A stretch of DNA of 51,829 bases from Alphaproteobacteria bacterium (GTDB taxonomy: Bacteria > Pseudomonadota > Alphaproteobacteria > Ferrovibrionales > Ferrovibrionaceae): NCBI GenBank assembly GCA_947473805.1, contig CANJGB010000025.1, positions 1-51,829 on the forward strand, in the 5' to 3' direction. The notes below the pieces were generated by a model. It was not told the DNA's origin, ran no database searches, and saw nothing but the letters and a program-made list of their open reading frames with translations. Numbering within the stretch: position 1 is the first letter of the stretch; each line of letters starts with the position of its first letter. This document shows, one piece after another, positions 12,255-28,010 of the stretch. The translations under genes were made by a program, and so were the position numbers.

Positions 12255-13612
12255 TTACCGCGGCGGCGTGGTGAGGACGCCGCTGTTGGACGACGCGCCG
12301 GCCGCCGCCACCGTCACCTGGTAGATGCCGACATCGGCGGCCCGCGTGGCGCCGTTGCGCATGCCAGCCTGCGCGGTGCAGGTAACCGCTGCGCCGCAAT
12401 TGCCGGCCGTGTTCTCGGTGAGGAAGAAGAACGCGGCGGGCGGCGCGGCATTGTAGCTGGTGGCCGGGATCGTGAGCGTAACGCCGGCCACATTGTTGCC
12501 GCCGCCGGCAACGGTGATGTTGCCGAATGTCGCGGCCAGGGTGCGCGCGCCGAAATTGACGGTCATGGTGAAGTCGAAGGTGCCGGTTCCAGTGCCGACA
12601 GTAGCGCTTATGATATTGCCGTTCTGCGTGAAGGTGCCGGTGCCGGCCAGGCCGATGATCTCCTGCGGGGTCGTGTTCCCGTTGACCACGAAGGTCGGGA
12701 CGGTGACGGCCGGTGTCAACGTGAGTTGCCGCTGCATTTCGGCCGCGCGCACATTGTCCACCGTGCCGGCCAGCGCGGCATCGCCCGCCGCCGCCACTAG
12801 GCTGTCGAGCGAACCGCCGTCGCCGCCATCGTCGCCGCCGGCCGCCGCGGACTTCTTGCCGCCGCCGCCCGAACCTCCGGAGCCGGAGCCGCCACCGGCG
12901 CCACCCGCGCCGGTCCGCTGCGATGCCGCCACCGTCTGCACCGCGTTCAGCGCGCCGAAGATGCGCTGCTGACTGGCGGCATCGAGGGCGCGGAGCTCCG
13001 GCGCCGACCCTTGCTGGATGAACGCCGCATAGCCCGAGCGGCGGATGTCCACCGCACCGTTCGGCGTGGCAACGTTGATGGCGCCGATCTTGTCGTTGAT
13101 GTCGCGGTCGCGCCGGCTACCCGGGCCGCCGAGGGCGACGACCGAACTTGTGCCGTTGGACTCGCCGTACACGATGGTGCCGCGCACGCCGATAATGGCG
13201 TTCGGCACCCTGACCTTCATGTTCTCCGGATGGTTCTGGGCAATGCGTCCGCTGACGAAACGGAAAGCGCCGGTGCCGATGCTGGCGGCGATCTTGCCGC
13301 GCCCGGTATTGGCATCGAAGCCGAAATCCTCGATCTCGATCTCGCTGTTCGGGCCGATGGTGAACACGCTCTCGTCCAGCAGCATGACCTGCATCGCGCC
13401 ATCGGGGCCGGAGCCACCCGTTCGCCCACATTGATCGGCTGGCCCGACTTCACCACGACGCCGGCGACGTCGGCCGCGGCGCCCGGCGGCGCCAGGCGAA
13501 TGTCGCCGCGCACGCCCGCCGCGATGCCGACCTGCTGTATCTGGGCATTGGATGGCGCGGTGCCGGCGAGGCAGGCTGCCACTACTGGCGCGAGGAAAAG
13601 CGGGAGACGCAT
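12255..13612 (-). pseudogene. FecR-domain exported protein 1, interrupted by a frameshift
   Basis: Periplasmic FecR-domain protein read in two frames. The first frame runs from ATG 13612 (GGGAG about 7 nt upstream): signal peptide MRLPLFLAPVVAACLAGTAPSNAQ, then VRGDIRLA and SGQPINVGERV. The second frame resumes at about 13410 with MQVMLLDESVFTIGPNSEIEIEDF, FRFVSGRIAQNHPENMKVRVP and NAIIGVRGTIVYGE. The break lies near 13410-13417: comparison with the paralogue next door (GDRIRSGNAAAMQVVLLDE) suggests one base is missing. After a Gly/Ser/Lys-rich linker the C-terminus (about 300-450) is rich in short beta strands such as GTGTFDFTMTVNFGARTLAATF, reminiscent of small beta-barrel domains. A restart in the second frame would give a protein without signal peptide. 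Sequencing error cannot be excluded. Confidence 0.75.
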
Positions 13613-13856: not shown

Positions 13857-15128
13857 CTACGGGCGACTGGCGTTGCCGCTGCCGGTCGAGACGGCGCCGC
13901 TCTGGCTGACCGTCACCGAGGTCTGGATGGTCTTGGCGATGGTGCCACCGCTGTTCAACAGCTTGATCTGCCCCGTGCAGGTCACGCCGGAACAGGAGCC
14001 CGACCCGTTCTCGAGGAACTGGCCGCTCGGGCTCGGGCCGGCGCCATAGCTGCCGCTGAAGCTCAGGCCACCGCCGCTCGTGCTGTTCGGTCCGCCACTG
14101 ACGCTGATGCTGCTAATCGAGCCGCTGAACGACCGGCTGCCGAAGTTGAAACTGAAAGAGAACGTGTAGCTGCCGCTGCCGCCCGACGACGGCGTGATCG
14201 TGCCGCTGCCGGAAAACGAGCCGGTGCCGCCGATCGTGCGCAAATCCGCATAGGTGGTGAGGTTGCTGGTGGAACTGCTGGAATTAATGATGTCGTTGAC
14301 GATTTTCCGGCTGATCTCGGACAGTACGACTTGCTTCAGCTGTTTGCTGTGTAGGTGAACCTCGGCGAGTTCGGTATCCGTGTCTTCGTCCGCCGCCGAC
14401 CTTTCTTGGATCGCGCGGAGGGCGGCATCAAACCTCGGGTCAAGCTGTGCTGGGCTTCGACCACCAAATCCCGTTGTGACCAACTGGAGGTCGGATGGAT
14501 TTGGCGGGCCGATGGTGACCGGCCGTCCGATTTCCGCCGTGGCCTGCCAGCCGGTACGGGTCAGCAACCCACCCTCGCCCGAGCCGTCGGTCATGGTTAT
14601 CAGGGCGCTGCCGCGCCGCTCGGCGGCGTTGCTCTCCGCGCCCGGGCCATTGAGGAAGATCGCCGACCGCGTGGCCGTGGTGAAGCCGGACATCATGGTG
14701 CCGCGCACGCCGATGGTGGCGATCGGCGTCTTGACGGTCATGCTCTCGGGCCGGACCTGCGCGATCTTGCCGGTGACGAAGCGGAACGCGCCGCGGCCGA
14801 CGCTGGCGGTCAGCGTGCCGGCGCCCGTGGCCGGGTTGTAGACAAACTCGTCCACGGTAATGTCGCTGTCGGCGCCGATGGTGAACACGGTCTCGTCCAG
14901 CAGGACGACCTGCATCGCGGCGGCGTTGCCGGAACGGATGCGGTCGCCGATGAAGATCGCCTCGCCCGAGCGCACCTGACGCCCGATGGCACCGGCCGGC
15001 GTCCCTGCCGCCGCCAGTTGGATGCCGCCGGTCACGCCCGCCGGTCACGCCCGCTGCGGTTGTGCCAAGGCGCCGCCAACACCGAAAACAATCGCCACAG
15101 CCCCGATGGCGAAGATTGGTCTGCGCAT
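13857..15128 (-). pseudogene. FecR-domain exported protein 2, interrupted by an in-frame TGA
   Basis: Paralogue of the neighbouring FecR gene. The frame opens at ATG 15128 behind GGGGGA: signal peptide MRRPIFAIGAVAIVFGVGGALAQ, then stops at codon 28 (TGA, 15045-15047). The same frame continues at once with GVTGGIQLAAAGTPAGAIG, SGEAIFIGDRIRSGNAAAMQV, ETVFTIGADSDITVDEF, FRFVTGKIAQVRPESMTVKTP and ATIGVRGTMMSG, the FecR domain. The C-terminal half has a helical segment and then a Ser/Gly-rich beta region (SGSYTFSFSFNFGSRSFSGS) like that of gene 1, with two cysteines in SGSCSGVTCTG. The stop sits inside a 13-bp tandem repeat. A GTG at 15035 could restart translation but would give a protein with no signal peptide. 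Sequencing error is possible. Confidence 0.75.
15027..15052 (-). repeat. 13-bp perfect tandem duplication inside FecR gene 2
   Basis: Two adjacent copies of GGGCGTGACCGGC (minus strand) at 15040-15052 and 15027-15039. In the signal-peptide frame the first copy is read GCG-TGA-CCG and gives the premature stop, whereas the second copy is read GGC-GTG-ACC-GGC, the sequence expected from the paralogue (AAGV-type). Thirteen is not a multiple of three, so the duplication changes frame. Confidence 0.9.
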
Positions 15129-20746: not shown

Positions 20747-20956
20747 TTATTTGCTCAGCGCACCCACGGCCGTGCCGCCCGCGCCGCCGATCAGGGCGCC
20801 GGTAACCCATGAGCCGGTCAGGGCGCCAACCACCGCACCGCCGGCTGCGCCGATGGCACCGCCGCTCAGCGCGCGCTGCTGCTGGCTGGTCATGTTCGAA
20901 CAGCCAGCCGTACTGGCCAACGCTGTGAACAACACGCCAATCACCAGATACCGCAT
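20747..20956 (-). CDS. Glycine-zipper lipoprotein (OsmB-like)
   Basis: 69-residue exported lipoprotein: signal peptide MRYLVIGVLFTALASTAGC with lipobox STAGC, then SNMTSQQQRALSGGAIGAAG and a run of glycine-zipper repeats ([29 protein letters not shown], seen as GxxxG/A steps) that forms membrane-associated helices. The closest known type is OsmB or the YMGG-like family of stress-induced lipoproteins. The ATG at 20956 opens the signal peptide, with AGGGG 10 nt upstream. It is divergent from the STAS gene, and an 8-bp inverted repeat lies between them. Confidence 0.8.
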   Translation of the reverse strand: MRYLVIGVLFTALASTAGCSNMTSQQQRALSGGAIGAAGGAVVGALTGSWVTGALIGGAGGTAVGALSK

Positions 20957-21068
20957 GATCTTCGACCCCTTTATTGTTACCGGGCACAGGCCGGCAGTCG
21001 CACCAGTAACGGTTGGGCGCGCAACCGATCCGGGACAAAGCTGGGGCAAAGCTGTAACAAAACGAGGG

Positions 21069-21091
21069 TGGTCCACCGATTGCGTGGACCA
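21069..21091. promoter_or_regulatory. Perfect inverted repeat between lipoprotein and STAS genes
   Basis: TGGTCCAC (21069-21076) and GTGGACCA (21084-21091) form perfect 8-bp arms around a 7-bp centre. It lies in the divergent region, 68 bp before the GTG start of the STAS gene and 112 bp before the lipoprotein start. It could be a dimer-bound operator or a leader hairpin; no bound regulator is known from the sequence. Confidence 0.55.
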
Positions 21092-21159
21092 GGCAAAATG
21101 TGGATGATGCGGCGGGCCGCTTGCGGGAGCGTTCCGCCCGGTTCTTGAAGGGGATGTGC

Positions 21160-21492
21160 GTGCAAATCGGCGAAAGCCGCGAGGGCGAGGTGGTCATCCT
21201 GCGCCCGACCGGGCGTATTGACAATGAGACCAGCCCGGCCTTTCAGTCGCGGCTGCTGGCCGCCCTCGCCTCGGCCAAGAACGTGCTGCTCGATCTCGAG
21301 GCCGTCGAATATGTCTCGTCCGCAGGTCTCCGGGCGCTGATGGTGGCGTCAAAGCAGAGCAAGTCGGCGGAGGGGCGCATCGGCGTCACCTCGCTGCAGC
21401 CTGTCGTGAAGGAAATCTTCGCGATCAGCCGGTTCGCCTTCGTCGTGCCCGTGTTCGACAAGCCGGCCGACGCCATCGCCGCCTGGAAATAG
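21160..21492 (+). CDS. STAS-domain anti-anti-sigma factor (SpoIIAA/RsbV type)
   Basis: 110-residue single-domain STAS protein. In partner switching, the unphosphorylated form binds an RsbW-type kinase and frees the sigma factor; phosphorylation of a conserved serine blocks this. The serine is seen in DLEAVEYVSSAGLRALMVASK, with ILRPTGRIDNETSPAFQ at the N-terminus. The start is a GTG at 21160, 6 nt after AAGGGG (21148-21153); an ATG at 21154 would lie directly on that site. It stands at the head of a run with the MBL-fold gene and the CHASE2-SpoIIE phosphatase, its probable dephosphorylating partner, and not far from an RsbW-like kinase at 25.6 kb. Confidence 0.9.
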   Translation: MQIGESREGEVVILRPTGRIDNETSPAFQSRLLAALASAKNVLLDLEAVEYVSSAGLRALMVASKQSKSAEGRIGVTSLQPVVKEIFAISRFAFVVPVFDKPADAIAAWK

Positions 21493-21502
21493 GACCGTTA
21501 CC

Positions 21503-22462
21503 GTGAAGATAAAGTTCTGGGGCACCCGCGGGTCGCTTCCCGCGCCGCTCAGCGCGACCGGCGTGCGCGCCAAGGTGCGTGATGCATTGCTGGCCGCGCG
21601 CGGACACAAACTGGAAACGCCCGAGGCAATCGACGCCTTTATCGATACGGCTCTGCCCTTCGCGGTGCGCGGCACGTTCGGCGGCAATTCCAGCTGCGTG
21701 CAGGTCGCCGCGGGCGACGGCCCCTATTTCATCTGCGATCTTGGCACCGGCGTGCGCGAGTTCGGCGCCCGCATGATGGCCAAGCACGGTGCTGGCAAGC
21801 CGCAGGTGTACCACGTCTTTATGTCCCATGTGCACTGGGACCACATCATGGGCTTCCCGTTCTTCACGCCGGCCTACATCCCCGGCAACATCATCCGCAT
21901 CCACGGCTGTCACAAGGTGCTGGAAGAGGCATTCCTGCGCCAGCAGGCCGATCCCAGCTTCCCGGTGCATTTCGACAAGCTGGCCGCGCAGATCGAGTTC
22001 ATCACCCTCGAGACTGACCGCGATTACGAGATCGACGGCCTGCGCGTGCGCGTCATGGCGCAGCATCATGCCGGTGAATCCTACGGCTACCGCTTCGAAC
22101 GAGATGGCCGCTCGATGGTCTATTCGACCGATTCCGAGCACAAGTTCGACGTGCTGGACGAGAGCTATCCGTTCATCGGTTTCTTCCGCGACGCCGACCT
22201 TGTCGTGTTCGACGCGATGTACTCCTACGCCGATGCCATTTCGGTGAAGGAGGACTGGGGCCATTCCAGCAACATCGTCGCCGTCGAGATGGCGCAGATG
22301 GCCAGGGTGAAGCACCTGGTCCTGTTCCACCACGAGCCGATCTACGACGACTACACGATCGAGACCATGCTGGGCGAAACGATCCGGTTCGAGGAAATCA
22401 ACCGTGACGGACACCAGGTCCGTGTCAGCACCGCCTATGACGGACTCGAGATCGAGCTCTAG
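21503..22462 (+). CDS. Metallo-beta-lactamase-fold hydrolase
   Basis: 319-residue MBL-fold enzyme of the RNase Z/phosphodiesterase-like group. The metal site is visible: SHVHWDHIMGFPFF (HxHxDH), MAQHHAGESYGYRF, STDSEH, and the downstream acidic residue in LVVFDAMYSY, with WGHSSNI and FHHEPIYDD near the end. The N-terminal MKIKFWGTRGSLPAP and GGNSSCVQV match the group of cyclic-nucleotide-phosphodiesterase-like proteins often found with histidine kinases and cyclases. The substrate is not determined; a cyclic nucleotide or RNA-type phosphodiester is a guess. It lies 10 bp after the STAS gene and 6 bp before the CHASE2-SpoIIE gene. Confidence 0.85.
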   Translation: MKIKFWGTRGSLPAPLSATGVRAKVRDALLAARGHKLETPEAIDAFIDTALPFAVRGTFGGNSSCVQVAAGDGPYFICDLGTGVREFGARMMAKHGAGKPQVYHVFMSHVHWDHIMGFPFFTPAYIPGNIIRIHGCHKVLEEAFLRQQADPSFPVHFDKLAAQIEFITLETDRDYEIDGLRVRVMAQHHAGESYGYRFERDGRSMVYSTDSEHKFDVLDESYPFIGFFRDADLVVFDAMYSYADAISVKEDWGHSSNIVAVEMAQMARVKHLVLFHHEPIYDDYTIETMLGETIRFEEINRDGHQVRVSTAYDGLEIEL

Positions 22463-22468
22463 CCCGCA

Positions 22469-24490
22469 ATGGTAACCGCACGCATCGCCGAACGGCTGCG
22501 GGCGGCCCTGCTGTTGCCGGGACGGCTGCCGGCGCTGGTGCTTCTCGCCGTCCTCGTGACGCTGCGCCTCGTCGATCCCGCCCCGATCGAGGAACTGCGT
22601 CTGCGCGCCTTTGACCTGGCGCAGCTTCTCGCGCCGCGCACGCAGCACGACGACCGCGTCAAGGTCGTGACCATCGACGAGGAAAGTCTGGCGAAACTGG
22701 GCCAATGACCGTGGCCGCGCAGCCTGCTGGCCGACGTTGTCAGTCGTATTGCGTCGGGCAAGCCCGCGGCTTTGGGTCTGGACATCCTGTTCGTCGAACC
22801 CGACCGGCTGTCGCCCGATCGTGTCGCTGAGTCGCTGCACGATCTGCCACCTGATCTGGCGCGTGCGCTTGCCGCCCTGCCATCCACCGACCGGCAACTG
22901 GCCGATGCGCTGCGCCTGGCGCCGACCGTGTCGGGCCTGGGTCCCAGCAACGAGGCGGTGCCGCCGGCGGGGCCCGTGCGCTCCACCGTGGTGCGCGAAC
23001 TGGGTGCGGACCCGCGTCCCTATCTGCCGGCGTTCGACGGCCTGGTGCCATCGCTCGCGGTCGAATTGCTGCGCATCGCGAACCGGCGTCCGGCGATCGA
23101 GATCATCACCGGGCGCAATGGCGTCGAGGCCGTGAAGGTCGGCGACATCGCGCTGCCGACCGATCGCCGCGGTCGCGTCTATCCGCATTTCGCCCGTCCG
23201 CGTCCGCAGACGCACATCTCCGCGTCGGCGTTGCTCGATGGCCGCGTCGATCCGGCGTCGCTCGAGGGCAATATCGTCTTGCTCGGCGTCACCGGCCTCG
23301 GTCTGACCGACGTGAAGCAGACACCGGTGGGTCTGGTCCACGGCGTCGAGGTCCATGCGCAAATTCTCGAGGCTGCGCTGACGGGCGATCTGCTGCGCCG
23401 GACCGGCCTGCTCGACCGGCTGGAACCATTGATCGTGCTGCTGGCCGGGCTGGTCGTGCTCTTCGGCTTCGACTATCGCCGGCCGCTGCAGGCGGCAGTT
23501 CTTCAGGGCGCACTGCTTATCGGGCTGGTCGCCTGCGCCTTCGTCGCGTTCCGTTTCGGCAGTCTCCTGGTCGACACCATCTATCCCGCCTACAGCACGA
23601 CCGGCCTGTTCGCGGTCATGCTGGGCGCTTCGCTGCGCGCCGCCGAGGCGGCAAAGCGCCGCCTGGCCGGCGAGCTACAGCTCGAGCGTGATGCCAAGGC
23701 ACGGATGGAAGGCGAGCTGAACGCCGCGCGGGCGATCCAGATGGGCCTGGTGCCGCGCCGTTTCCCGCCCTTTCCAGGTCGAACGGATATCGACGTGTTC
23801 GCGCTGATCGAGCCGGCGCGCACGGTCGGTGGCGACCTGTACGATTTCGCCCTGCTCGACAACGACCGGCTCTACTTCTCCATCGGCGACGTATCCGGCA
23901 AGGGCATGCCGGCCGCCCTGTTCATGGCCATGACGAGGGAGGTGCTGCACTCCTCCGCGTTGCGCCACGACGGCGCGCTGGATCAGGTCCTGGCCGAGGC
24001 CAATGCAAAAATCTCAGCCGCCAGTGCCGATATGTTGAGCGAGGGCGGCAACATGATGTTCGCCACTGCCTTTGCCGGCATTCTCGATCTCTCGACCGGC
24101 GAACTGGTGTTCGCCAGTGCCGGCCACGATGCGCCGATCCGTCTGCGCGCCGAGAGTGCGCCGGAATCGCTCGAGGTCCTGGGCGGCCCGCCGCTCGGCT
24201 GCGTCGATGATTTTCCGTTTCCGCTGGAGCGGGCACGGCTGTTGCCCGGCGATACGCTGTTGCTGTTCACCGATGGCGTGACCGAGGCCGAGGACCCGGC
24301 GCGGGCGCTCTATTCGTCGTCGCGCCTGATGGACCTTCTGCACACGGACGCGCCGCGCGACCCCACGGTGCTGGTCCGCGCCGTGCGCGACGACCTGCGC
24401 CGCTTCGTGGCCACGGCCGAACAGGCCGACGACATCACCATGCTGGCCATCGCCTGGCCCGGCCCGGCGCCGCGGGTCATCGCACCGTGA
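22469..24490 (+). pseudogene. CHASE2-SpoIIE/PP2C-type sensor phosphatase with an in-frame TGA
   Basis: Membrane receptor of about 673 codons. One N-terminal span (LPALVLLAVLVTLRLVD), a periplasmic CHASE2 domain (VKVVTIDEESLAKLGQ, LGLDILFVEPDR, NIVLLGVTGLGLTDVKQTPVG, GVEVHAQILEAALTGDLLRR), three further spans (about 325-405), a short coiled coil and a cytoplasmic SpoIIE phosphatase domain with GGDLYDFALLD, FSIGDVSGKGMPAALFMAM, SAGHDAPIRL, LFTDGVTEAEDP and DDITMLAI. After LAKLGQ a TGA (22706-22708) interrupts the frame, which goes on as PWPRSLLADVV; Trp (TGG) is the residue normally found before PWPR in CHASE2 proteins. It probably dephosphorylated the STAS protein two genes upstream. A restart downstream would lack the first membrane span and part of the sensor. 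Confidence 0.85.
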
Positions 24491-25076
24491 CTTCGACCCG
24501 CCGGTTGCGCGGCTCGTCCACGCCGCGCGCGGTCGGCACGGCCTGGTCCAGCTCACCACGCCCCGCGGTCGTGATGGCCCCTGCCGCTATGCCGTCGCGG
24601 ACCAGCCGGTCACGCATCGACGCGGCCCGCTGCTGTGACAAATCCTGGTTGCGCGCCGCAACGCCCGTGGTGTCCGTATGGCCGACCACCTCGACCTGGT
24701 AGACCGGCCGGCGCCTGATGTCGTCGAACACCGCGCGGTACGCCGCGTCGGACTCGGGCGTCAGGCGGTCGCTGCCGGTCTGGAAGTACAACCGGAAATG
24801 CACCGGCAGAATCGGCCGCGCGGCCAGCGCCGCACCGAACACCTGCCGCACCTCGACCTCCGAGGTCTGCACCGGGGCCGTTACACCGCCACGGCTTTCG
24901 CTCGCCGCATAGGGGCGGTCCAGCAGGATTTCCCGCTTGCCGTCATTGACTGTGATCGCGCCGATATGGCCATCGTCACCCGGCAAAACGACGAACAGGG
25001 CCTGGCGCGGGGCCGGCGTTTGCTGGCAGGCGGCGAGCGCCAGCAGGGCGCCCAGCAGGATAAGGCCGCGCCTCAC
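24477..25076 (-). CDS. OmpA-family lipoprotein
   Basis: 199-residue outer-membrane lipoprotein. A signal peptide ends in the lipobox ALAAC; a middle region of about 70 residues with no known fold follows; the C-terminal OmpA domain (about 95-198) binds peptidoglycan and shows LYFQTGSDRLTPES, VEVVGHTDTTG and GRGELDQAVPT with NRRVEVTV at the end. Its start overlaps the stop of the fecR gene by four bases (ATGA), so the pair is co-translated. The 3' end overlaps the CHASE2-SpoIIE gene by 14 bp on the other strand. FecR, OmpA and CHASE2 genes are often neighbours, which supports an envelope-sensing unit. Confidence 0.88.
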   Translation of the reverse strand: MRRGLILLGALLALAACQQTPAPRQALFVVLPGDDGHIGAITVNDGKREILLDRPYAASESRGGVTAPVQTSEVEVRQVFGAALAARPILPVHFRLYFQTGSDRLTPESDAAYRAVFDDIRRRPVYQVEVVGHTDTTGVAARNQDLSQQRAASMRDRLVRDGIAAGAITTAGRGELDQAVPTARGVDEPRNRRVEVTVR

Positions 25077-25522
25077 GGCTTCACCTGCACGGCGAAGGTG
25101 GTGCCGCGCACGCCCATGATGGCGGTCGGCGTCTTGACCTTCATGCTGCCCGGCGTGCTGCGGGCAATGTCACCCGACACGACGGTCAGCGTGCCACGCC
25201 GGACCTCGCTGGTCATCGCGCCCTTGAAATTGCTCGAATCGAAGCTGAATTCCTCCAGCGACACCTGGCTGTTCGGACCGCTCGAGAAAACCGAATTGTC
25301 GATGAACGTGACGCCGATGGCGCCGTCGGCGCCCGTCTCCAAAACGTCCTTTTCCTGCACCGCATCGCCGGGCCTGGCCGCCACCCGGCCGCCGTCGCGC
25401 AGCACAAAGGCTTGGCCGGCCACTGTCTTTACCTGCCCAATCACGGCGCCTGCGGCCATGGCTGGCCCGGCAAGGCCAGCCAGAGCCAGCGTCGCGACGC
25501 CCGCCCATACGAATTTGTGCAT
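25073..25522 (-). CDS. FecR-domain periplasmic protein (short)
   Basis: 149-residue exported protein, essentially a signal peptide (MHKFVWAGVATLALAGLAGPAMA) plus one FecR domain: GQVKTVAGQAFVLRDG, GDAVQEKDVLETGADGAIGV, FIDNSVFSSGPNSQVSLEEF and TPTAIMGVRGTTFAVQV. It is the intact third FecR protein in the window and lacks the long C-terminal beta region of the two at 12-15 kb. It overlaps the OmpA-lipoprotein start by four bases. The probable role is as a periplasmic partner of the CHASE2 receptor; this is inference from recurring gene neighbourhood, since these FecR proteins lack the membrane span of iron-sensing FecR. Confidence 0.88.
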   Translation of the reverse strand: MHKFVWAGVATLALAGLAGPAMAAGAVIGQVKTVAGQAFVLRDGGRVAARPGDAVQEKDVLETGADGAIGVTFIDNSVFSSGPNSQVSLEEFSFDSSNFKGAMTSEVRRGTLTVVSGDIARSTPGSMKVKTPTAIMGVRGTTFAVQVKP

Positions 25523-25621
25523 CCCTGTCTCCCTTCGGCGGCGCTGCCGCGCGTGTGAATCTGTCGTCGGCTGCGTCCGACTCGGCTACTATTCTAGCAG
25601 CAAAACGCAAAGAGGATGTCC

Positions 25622-26044
25622 GTGGCGGCTCGCCTGACGGTTGACGCGGATATGGCCGCCTGGCCCGCCTTGGCGCGCTTCGTCGAAGCGTTCGCGGCCG
25701 AGCAGCGCCTGCCTGGCGACGAACGGGCGCGGCTCATGGTCGTGCTCGAGGAACTGCTGACCAACCTGGTGAAATACGGCTATGACGCCGGCGCACCGCG
25801 CGGCACGGCGCATGTCGGCCTTGCGATCGAGCGTGGCCTTCTGGCCATCGATTTCGAGGATGACGGCCGTCCCTTCGACCCGCTGGGCCGCGCCGTCGAT
25901 CATCTCGACAAGGCCGTTGAGGACCGCCCCGTAGGAGGCCTGGGCCTGCACCTGATCCGGTCGATGGCCCAGGACGCCAGCTATTCCCGCCACGCTGGTC
26001 GCAACCACCTGCGCCTGGTCCGGCGGTTGTCGGCCCCACTCTAG
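25622..26044 (+). CDS. RsbW-like anti-sigma factor/serine kinase (HATPase_c)
   Basis: 140-residue GHKL-type ATPase of the RsbW/SpoIIAB group, which phosphorylates STAS partners and holds sigma factors or other targets. The N box is visible in [16 protein letters not shown], the G1 box in [12 protein letters not shown] and the G2 box in [13 protein letters not shown]. The start is taken as a GTG at 25622, 6 nt after AAAGAGG (25609-25615); the ATG at 25616 lies directly on that site. It is divergent from the fecR-ompA pair and followed by a strong terminator. With the STAS protein and the CHASE2-SpoIIE phosphatase it completes a partner-switch set. Confidence 0.88.
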
Positions 26045-26047
26045 GAC

Positions 26048-26076
26048 CAGACACCAAGGCCGGTGTCTGCCTTTTT
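26048..26076 (+). terminator. Rho-independent terminator after the RsbW-like gene
   Basis: CAGACACC (26048-26055) and GGTGTCTG (26062-26069) form a perfect 8-bp stem with a six-base loop, followed by CCTTTTT. It begins 4 bp after the stop codon and separates the RsbW-like gene from the histidine kinase gene. Confidence 0.85.
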
Positions 26077-26102
26077 CACTTGGCTTCGCCTATAGTTCGC
26101 CC

Positions 26103-28010
26103 ATGGCTTCGATCTTTAACTTCGAGAACACCCTCGCGCGCCGGATCCGGAACGCCGGCCTGCTGGTCGTCGTGGTCTGCTGCGTCGGCGTACTGTACGT
26201 GCTGTCGGCCGACCTGATCGCGGGCGAGAGCGCCATCAATCTCGGTCCCTATTCGATTGGCGCGGTCGTTGCCCTGCTCTATATCGCGATCGCGGTGCTG
26301 ATCCAGGACGGTCGCGTCAAGTACAAGCGCCTGGGCCAGCAAAACGCCCAGATCAGCGAACTGGCGGACCGGCTGGGCCAGACCGTCGATACGCTGAACG
26401 AGATGAATACCGAGCTGCAGACCGCCCGCGATGCGGCCGAGGCCGCCGCCCGCGCCAAGGCCAGCTTCCTCGCGACCATGAGTCACGAGATCCGCACGCC
26501 GATCAACGGCGTGCTGGGCATGAGTCGCCTGCTGCTGGCCACCGACCTGACCCCCGAACAGCGCGCCTATGCCGAGGCGGCGCACCTGTCGGGCGAGGCG
26601 CTGCTGACATTGCTCAACGACGTGCTCGACTTCTCGAAGATCGAGGCCGGCCGCATCGAGCTGGAGGAAATTCCGTTCGAGCTGGCGCCTGTCATCGAGG
26701 GCGTCGCCGAACTGCTGAGCCCGCGCACCATCGAGAAGAACATCGGCATCAGCACCTATATCGCGCCCGATGTGCCGATGCGCCTGATCGGCGACCCCGG
26801 TCGGTTGCGCCAGGTAGTTCTGAACCTGGCCGGCAATGCGGTGAAGTTTACCGAACATGGCGGCGTGGTCATCGAGGTGACGAAGGATGGCGACGAGCGG
26901 CTGCACTTCGCCGTGACCGATACCGGCATCGGCATCTCCGAGGACGCGCAGCGTCACCTCTTCGCCGAGTTCAGCCAGGTCGATTCCTCGATTTCGCGGC
27001 GCTTCGGCGGTACCGGCCTCGGTCTGGCCATCAGTTCCCGCCTGGTCGAGGCGATGGGCGGCGGCATCGGCGTGCGCAGCGCGGCCGAGCGTGGCTCGGT
27101 GTTCTGGTTCGCCATCCCCTGCCGCCCTGCCGGCGACGGCGCGGTCGAACGCGTTGTGCCGATCAACAAGCGCGCAGTGCTCGTGCATCATGACGCCATG
27201 CTGCGGTCGGTGTTCGAACGCAAGCTGCGCGACATCGGCGTGGAGTCGGTTGCCCTCGGCGACTGGGCCAGTGCGCGCCCGGTTCTGCAGCCGACGGATG
27301 GCACGCCCCCCTTCGATATCCTGGTCATCGACAGCACGCTCAGCGATCCGCCCGCGCTGCAGGTGATCCGCGAGGTGCGGAACGATCCCGCCCTCGCCGG
27401 CCTGAAGACTGTCGTGCTGTTGCCGCTGTCCCGCCGCGGCGAGGTCGATGGGCTGCTTGGCGCCGGCTTCGACTCCTACCTGATCAAGCCGGTCCGCCGC
27501 TCGTCGCTGTATCGTCGCCTTGCGATCCTGACCGACATGCTGCCGGTCACGGGCGAAGCAACGCCGCCGCCCCGGCGCCTGGCCTCCGCCGTGGCCTCGG
27601 GTGAAGAGGTGCTCAAGGTCCTCGTCGCCGAGGACAACAAGATCAACCAGATGCTGGCGCGCTCGCTGCTGCGGCGGGCCGGCCATCGCGTCGAGGTGGT
27701 TTCCGATGGCGCCGAAGCGGTCGCCGCCGTGCAGCGCGGCGAGTTCGACGTCGTGCTGATGGACGTCCACATGCCCGAGGTGGATGGCTTCGAGGCGACG
27801 CGGCGCATCCGCGCCCTGCCGGGCGACCTGTGCCGCATTCCCATCGTGGCGCTCACCGCCGATGCGCTTGAGGGCGATCGCCGCCGCTGCATCGAGGCCG
27901 GCATGGACGACTACCTGTCCAAGCCCATCGACTTCGAGGAGCTGCACGCAACGCTCGAACGCTGGCGTTCCGCACGCTCAAACGCCGCCGCCGCCGCCGC
28001 CGCCCAATAG
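26103..28010 (+). CDS. Hybrid sensor histidine kinase with two receiver domains
   Basis: 635-residue membrane kinase. Two N-terminal spans (about 18-38 and 50-68) with almost no periplasmic loop, a coiled coil (about 75-120), HisKA with the phospho-acceptor His128 in [18 protein letters not shown], the ATP domain (about 225-340: [40 protein letters not shown]), and two receiver domains. The first (about 356-475) is degenerate around Asp410 ([10 protein letters not shown]) and Lys462; the second (about 504-620) is complete, with Asp554 in [11 protein letters not shown] and Lys607 in YLSKPID. Tail is alanine-rich. It may feed the neighbouring partner-switch genes or act alone; no response regulator with a DNA-binding output is adjacent. 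Confidence 0.94.

Follow-up and report, generated by a model that had tools for sequence, protein, structure and literature searches.

Partner switches are known mainly as controls of sigma factors, and few of them, for example the one acting on SiaD, have an enzyme as output. In the SpoIIAA/SpoIIAB/SpoIIE and RsbV/RsbW/RsbU systems of Bacillus the switch consists of a STAS antagonist phosphorylated on serine, a GHKL kinase and a PP2C phosphatase. Here we describe a six-gene cassette from an alphaproteobacterium of the Ferrovibrionaceae (assembly GCA_947473805.1, contig CANJGB010000025.1; the 51,829 nucleotides analysed are called the window) which encodes three proteins aligning with this trio in their key residues. 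In contrast to the Bacillus switches the cassette comes without a sigma factor gene, its phosphatase bears a CHASE2 domain, and a hydrolase of the metallo-beta-lactamase (MBL) fold, a FecR-domain protein and an OmpA-domain lipoprotein are regular neighbours. Our reading of the sequences, held at roughly even chances, is that of an envelope-gated partner switch with an enzyme output.

Such an output is known from SiaABCD of Pseudomonas aeruginosa (PMC7647112), in which a membrane PP2C phosphatase and a kinase control the phosphorylation of an antagonist-like protein that acts on an enzyme and not on a sigma factor (PMC7647112, PMC8457831). However, that system is built from the SiaC and SiaB families and a diguanylate cyclase, whereas in the cassette an MBL hydrolase accompanies a STAS/HATPase_c_2 pair of the canonical kind. 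Membership in SiaABCD was rejected, as the SiaA model reaches 33.7 bits against a cut-off of 700 and no cyclase gene recurs in the neighbourhoods of the cassette. The HsbR-HsbA/HsbD system of P. aeruginosa (PMC6482189, PMC5085249) also relies on a STAS-type antagonist that has multiple partners and is tied to a second-messenger enzyme, but there the phosphatase is a response regulator and the targets are FlgM/RpoS and a diguanylate cyclase.

The sensory part has described relatives as well. FecR lies beside CHASE2 in a biofilm operon of Burkholderia contaminans together with a histidine kinase (PMC5192318), and in Campylobacterota in a cluster with a CHASE2-adenylate cyclase and a phosphodiesterase (PMC9239204). 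Both share with the cassette a FecR envelope protein next to a CHASE2 sensor, and the cyclase version also the phosphodiesterase; in place of a partner switch with its SpoIIE phosphatase, they have a histidine kinase or a cyclase as output. No paper on a partner-switch/MBL version of the FecR-CHASE2 pairing was found in a literature search, most subscription papers lying outside its scope.

Gene content and conservation of the cassette

A first-pass annotation, made from the sequence alone, had named STAS, CHASE2-SpoIIE, RsbW-like, FecR, OmpA, glycine-zipper, MBL and hybrid kinase genes in this region. Scans of the open reading frames (ORFs) with Pfam and NCBIfam find each of these domains at or near the place assigned to it, with strong Pfam scores. 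The features of the cassette are:

21100-21492, + strand: STAS protein, SpoIIAA/RsbV-like antagonist (Pfam STAS, 2.8e-18; conserved part from about 21154-21160)
21503-22462, + strand: MBL-fold metallo-hydrolase, long form (Pfam Lactamase_B_2, 6.2e-18)
22469-24490, + strand: CHASE2-SpoIIE membrane phosphatase gene, frame interrupted once (CHASE2, 6e-44 over the whole frame with one TGA; SpoIIE, 7.7e-47)
22706-22708, + strand: in-frame TGA within CHASE2, in place of the first Trp of the GQWPWPR motif
24477-25076, - strand: OmpA-domain lipoprotein (Pfam OmpA, 2.9e-18; LAAC lipobox)
25073-25522, - strand: FecR-domain protein, apparently secreted (Pfam FecR, 1e-8)
25616-26044, + strand: RsbW/SpoIIAB-like HATPase_c_2 kinase (Pfam HATPase_c_2, 8.7e-21)

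Gaps of 10 bp and 6 bp separate the STAS from the MBL gene and the MBL from the CHASE2-SpoIIE gene. The ompA gene converges on the latter and overlaps its end, fecR and ompA share 4 bp, and fecR and the HATPase gene are divergent and 93 bp apart. A scan for sigma-70-like promoters gave no match.

An MBL alignment scan of species genomes gathered 80 loci with 52-66% identity. Counts are restricted to the 62 loci with enough flanking sequence, which were annotated by profiles built from the cassette. The order and strands of the window, i.e. STAS, MBL and CHASE2-SpoIIE in one direction, convergent with FecR-OmpA, which is divergent from the HATPase gene, recur exactly in 43 of the 62, and the clustering of these genes is therefore far beyond chance. 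STAS is present in 61 loci, SpoIIE in 56 and OmpA and HATPase in 49 each; the two members of the FecR-CHASE2 sensory pair are found in 51 (FecR) and 56 (CHASE2). The joint conservation of FecR, OmpA, CHASE2, SpoIIE, STAS and RsbW, on which the first-pass annotation had staked its proposal, is borne out by this neighbourhood survey.

According to the record labels the carriers are Alpha-, Beta- and Gammaproteobacteria, one member of the Desulfobacteraceae and two Rokubacteriota metagenome-assembled genomes (MAGs), although such labels are fallible (one reads Klebsiella, two Rhizobium). One carrier, L110, is Desertibaculum subflavum, a species that can be cultivated. With CHASE2-SpoIIE as query among relatives, two genomes of the same family were found to contain the cassette, and 398 genomes sampled evenly across the phylum contained another two carriers, of which one has the complete cassette and the other STAS-MBL-CHASE2-SpoIIE. 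As these independent entry points agree, the distribution of the cassette is widespread but sparse.

The arrangement is not fixed in all carriers. In the two same-family genomes (L036, L037) the HATPase gene leads a HATPase-STAS-MBL-CHASE2-SpoIIE operon, and FecR-OmpA close a facing operon of an OmpR-type response regulator and a histidine kinase, which indicates that the sensor side can be rewired. A protein of 1207 residues in L040 (6429-10049) matches both the SpoIIE and the HATPase queries and has an adjoining STAS gene, so that phosphatase and kinase are possibly one chain there. Tandem STAS domains (8990, 9567) precede the MBL gene in L056, and L061 (9556-11409) has a STAS-MBL-HATPase triad with no nearby CHASE2-SpoIIE gene, possibly a minimal core.

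The partner-switch core and its putative output

SpoIIAA is phosphorylated on Ser58. Ser74 of the STAS protein aligns with this residue, and the serine is invariant in 76 of 76 sequences. Glu46 and Asn50 in the N-box of the HATPase align with SpoIIAB and are kept in 54 of 56 and 56 of 56 sequences, and the metal-binding residues D355, D373, D501 and D553/D554 of the PP2C domain (numbered in the ORF from 22772) are conserved in 66-68 of 68. The antagonist phosphoserine, the N-box Glu/Asn of the GHKL kinase and the metal-binding Asp residues of the PP2C phosphatase, which mark a SpoIIA/Rsb-type module, are thus all present. A profile search of the window assembly (95% complete) revealed one SpoIIE domain, one stand-alone STAS protein (two other matches lie in frames of 566 and 417 residues) and one strong short HATPase_c_2 protein (two weak passes lie in frames of 414 and 706 residues). 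Since each is the single one of its kind, the three are probably mutual partners and most likely serve each other.

On the envelope side, the OmpA protein is a lipoprotein by its LAAC lipobox and has a domain of the peptidoglycan-binding type; its gene adjoins CHASE2-SpoIIE in 49 loci. Read from its sequence, FecR has a signal peptide, no transmembrane (TM) segment and no anti-sigma region, and appears to be exported to the periplasm in soluble form. The two had been annotated as a lipoprotein pair, which is correct for OmpA, while FecR has a plain signal peptide. Two further FecR-domain proteins of 379 and 392 residues are encoded in tandem about 6 kb upstream of the cassette (window 12255-13394 and 13857-15035, both - strand); they have long Gly/Ser-rich C-terminal parts and no adjoining CHASE2 gene.

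The STAS gene adjoins the MBL gene in 61 of the 62 loci. In L051, L052 and L114 the two proteins are joined in a single chain of about 448 residues, which contains a linker rich in Pro and Ala. These three MAGs differ mutually at about a third of residues and their MBLs are the nearest neighbours of the window MBL in the tree, so that the fusion is unlikely to be an artefact. The correlation of pairwise tree distances is highest of all pairs for STAS and MBL (r=0.85), followed by HATPase-STAS and HATPase-MBL (0.80).

The MBL protein carries the motif SHVHWDH, whose Ser, three His and Asp residues are invariant in 81 of 81 sequences, as are the metal ligands. The motif conforms to [T/S]HXHXDH, the published signature of atypical class-II phosphodiesterases (PDEs) such as Rv1339, YhfI and CpdA of C. 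glutamicum (PMC9293780), with which the cassette MBL also shares the fold. In contrast to these it has a helical insertion of about 37 residues after FWGTRGS, a STAS partner and a score below the family cut-off. The spacing from FWGTRGS to the GG motif is about 44-52 residues in all measurable cassette MBLs (low values of 21 and 24 are internal GG matches of the pattern) versus 11 in every measurable short paralogue, among them two of the same genome. An AlphaFold2 model of the L051 fusion (mean predicted local distance difference test, pLDDT, 82.5; predicted template modelling score, pTM, 0.69) shows this insertion as helical. Among its top fold matches are YhfI, the best one in Foldseek, RNase Z, PhnP and yeast PDE1, with VIA-align Z values of 24-28 for YhfI, RNase Z and PDE1; a STAS match is absent among the fold matches listed, since the MBL domain filled the list. 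A mixed alignment of STAS-only and MBL-only sequences was not used for structure prediction because MAFFT stretched the STAS rows over the MBL part.

From sequence and model, the substrate is most likely a cyclic nucleotide or another phosphodiester, as in the atypical class-II PDEs; RNA is possible. Three CHASE2 cyclases are encoded in the same genome. In L148 (7508-12479) genes for a CHASE2-cyclase and FecR occur with a divergent, related short-form MBL gene, possibly a sister arrangement with cyclase output instead of SpoIIE. L162 (1090-2325) and L172 (1063-2295) encode fusions of a response-regulator receiver domain with a short-form relative of the cassette hydrolase, which suggests that enzymes of this class act as signalling outputs in other systems. 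Together with the STAS-MBL adjacency, the fusions and the insertion of the subfamily, this makes the MBL enzyme, and not a sigma factor, most likely the best candidate for the output. The first-pass annotation had suggested the hydrolase or the hybrid kinase; the fusions favour the former, and the latter is no member of the cassette.

Proposed mechanism and competing explanations

We propose that the periplasmic CHASE2 domain receives information on the condition of the envelope from FecR, as a secreted protein, and from the OmpA lipoprotein, which would bind peptidoglycan, and that it governs the cytoplasmic SpoIIE/PP2C domain. The latter is predicted to dephosphorylate the STAS protein at Ser74, and the RsbW-like HATPase to rephosphorylate it, judged from the chemistry of these families and the key residues present. 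Binding of STAS (or of the HATPase) to the long-form MBL may then depend on the phosphorylation state, which would thereby set the activity of the enzyme; the fusions, the gene order and the lack of another conserved target point to this step, and contact is probably made by the helical insertion unique to the subfamily. That this is a widespread, so far undescribed class of partner switches, found among Proteobacteria and perhaps in Rokubacteria as well, whose STAS protein conveys the envelope state sensed by FecR, OmpA and CHASE2 to a phosphodiesterase or nuclease activity of the MBL, we rate just short of even. If true, a hydrolase would be controlled post-translationally in place of a sigma factor, the principle of partner switching would extend to a new enzyme class, and the CHASE2-FecR pairs of unassigned signal would gain a function. 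The six proteins would form a small portable set for reconstituting the whole chain, and since STAS and MBL occur naturally fused, its central link is addressable with one purified protein.

In the present assembly an in-frame TGA would truncate the sensor phosphatase, barring a wrongly assembled base or readthrough of the codon. The translation comprises a first TM segment (TM1), the periplasmic CHASE2 domain, more TM segments and the PP2C domain, and the family match to CHASE2 reads through the single TGA at 22706-22708. The first-pass annotation, which did not mention this codon, described a complete sensing chain; as assembled, the chain is not intact. The Trp at this position is invariant, being kept in all full-length relatives inspected. 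As written, translation would end before most of CHASE2, and re-initiation at TTG 22772, where the longest clean ORF opens, would cost TM1 and the first part of CHASE2. A genome-wide use of TGA for Trp was ruled out, because within the cassette itself the frames of FecR and SpoIIE end in TGA. From the sequence, the codon is either a nonsense mutation or an assembly error.

Several points weigh against the MBL as output. The linkage rates are conditional on MBL similarity, by which the loci were collected, and the distance correlations are inflated by shared inheritance of the cassette. The fusion carriers L052 and L114 have no sensor genes next door, and in the genome of L052 no protein matches both CHASE2 and SpoIIE. 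The docking of STAS on MBL is not fixed by the fusion model, given its pTM and a disordered linker (113-126), and was not used. The MBL reaches 53.5 bits with the atypical class-II PDE model NF041851 (cut-off 400) and, despite the fold match, 70.1 bits with the RNase Z model TIGR02651 (cut-off 292.95). Finally, eleven sigma-70-family genes elsewhere in the genome could be targets. They would suit a classical switch in which the HATPase serves as anti-sigma factor to a sigma factor from another locus, with the MBL as an auxiliary enzyme within that regulon, and the resemblance of STAS, HATPase and PP2C to SpoIIAA, SpoIIAB and RsbU-type proteins speaks for such a switch too. However, SpoIIA/Rsb modules usually co-encode their target, and clustering of all flank ORFs in the 80 neighbourhoods (10-kb flanks) revealed no recurrent sigma factor gene, in line with the first-pass annotation, which had seen none in the set. 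Besides cassette genes and antisense frames each ORF family is found in at most 10 loci, and a missed sigma factor or other output gene in the flanks was rejected on these grounds. Unlinked targets are possible, but they leave the STAS-MBL fusion and the near-unbroken adjacency of both genes unexplained, and we consider this explanation rather unlikely.

It is quite improbable, in our view, that the MBL acts upstream, with the output elsewhere, by making or removing a small regulatory ligand of either the phosphatase or the STAS/HATPase pair. The place of its gene between those of STAS and phosphatase would agree with that, as would the published CHASE2-cyclase/FecR clusters with phosphodiesterases (PMC9239204), but STAS and MBL are fused in three genomes, two of them without the sensor next door, so that the MBL tracks STAS and not the sensor. 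Decay of the system in this genome, with the TGA inactivating the sensor phosphatase and the other genes as relics, is compatible with the enzyme-output reading for the family as a whole; it is somewhat doubtful, even though the TGA hits an invariant Trp. The 79 codons ahead of it are 41-46% identical to four relatives with a GC content at third codon positions of 0.82, the remaining cassette genes are intact with their catalytic residues and no second lesion was seen in the cassette, all of which suggests a recent mutation or an assembly error; the assembly is a draft of 58 contigs, in which one wrong base would give the same picture.

Flanking genes

Three features border the cassette:

20747-20956, - strand: glycine-zipper lipoprotein gene (Pfam)
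26048-26069, + strand: terminator-like hairpin, 8-bp stem plus T run
26103-28010, + strand: hybrid histidine kinase (Pfam)

Both genes had been counted as parts of the system. By profile annotation of the retrieved loci neither has a counterpart that recurs in the cassettes, and they were rejected as members. The hairpin follows the HATPase gene and closes the cassette ahead of the hybrid kinase.

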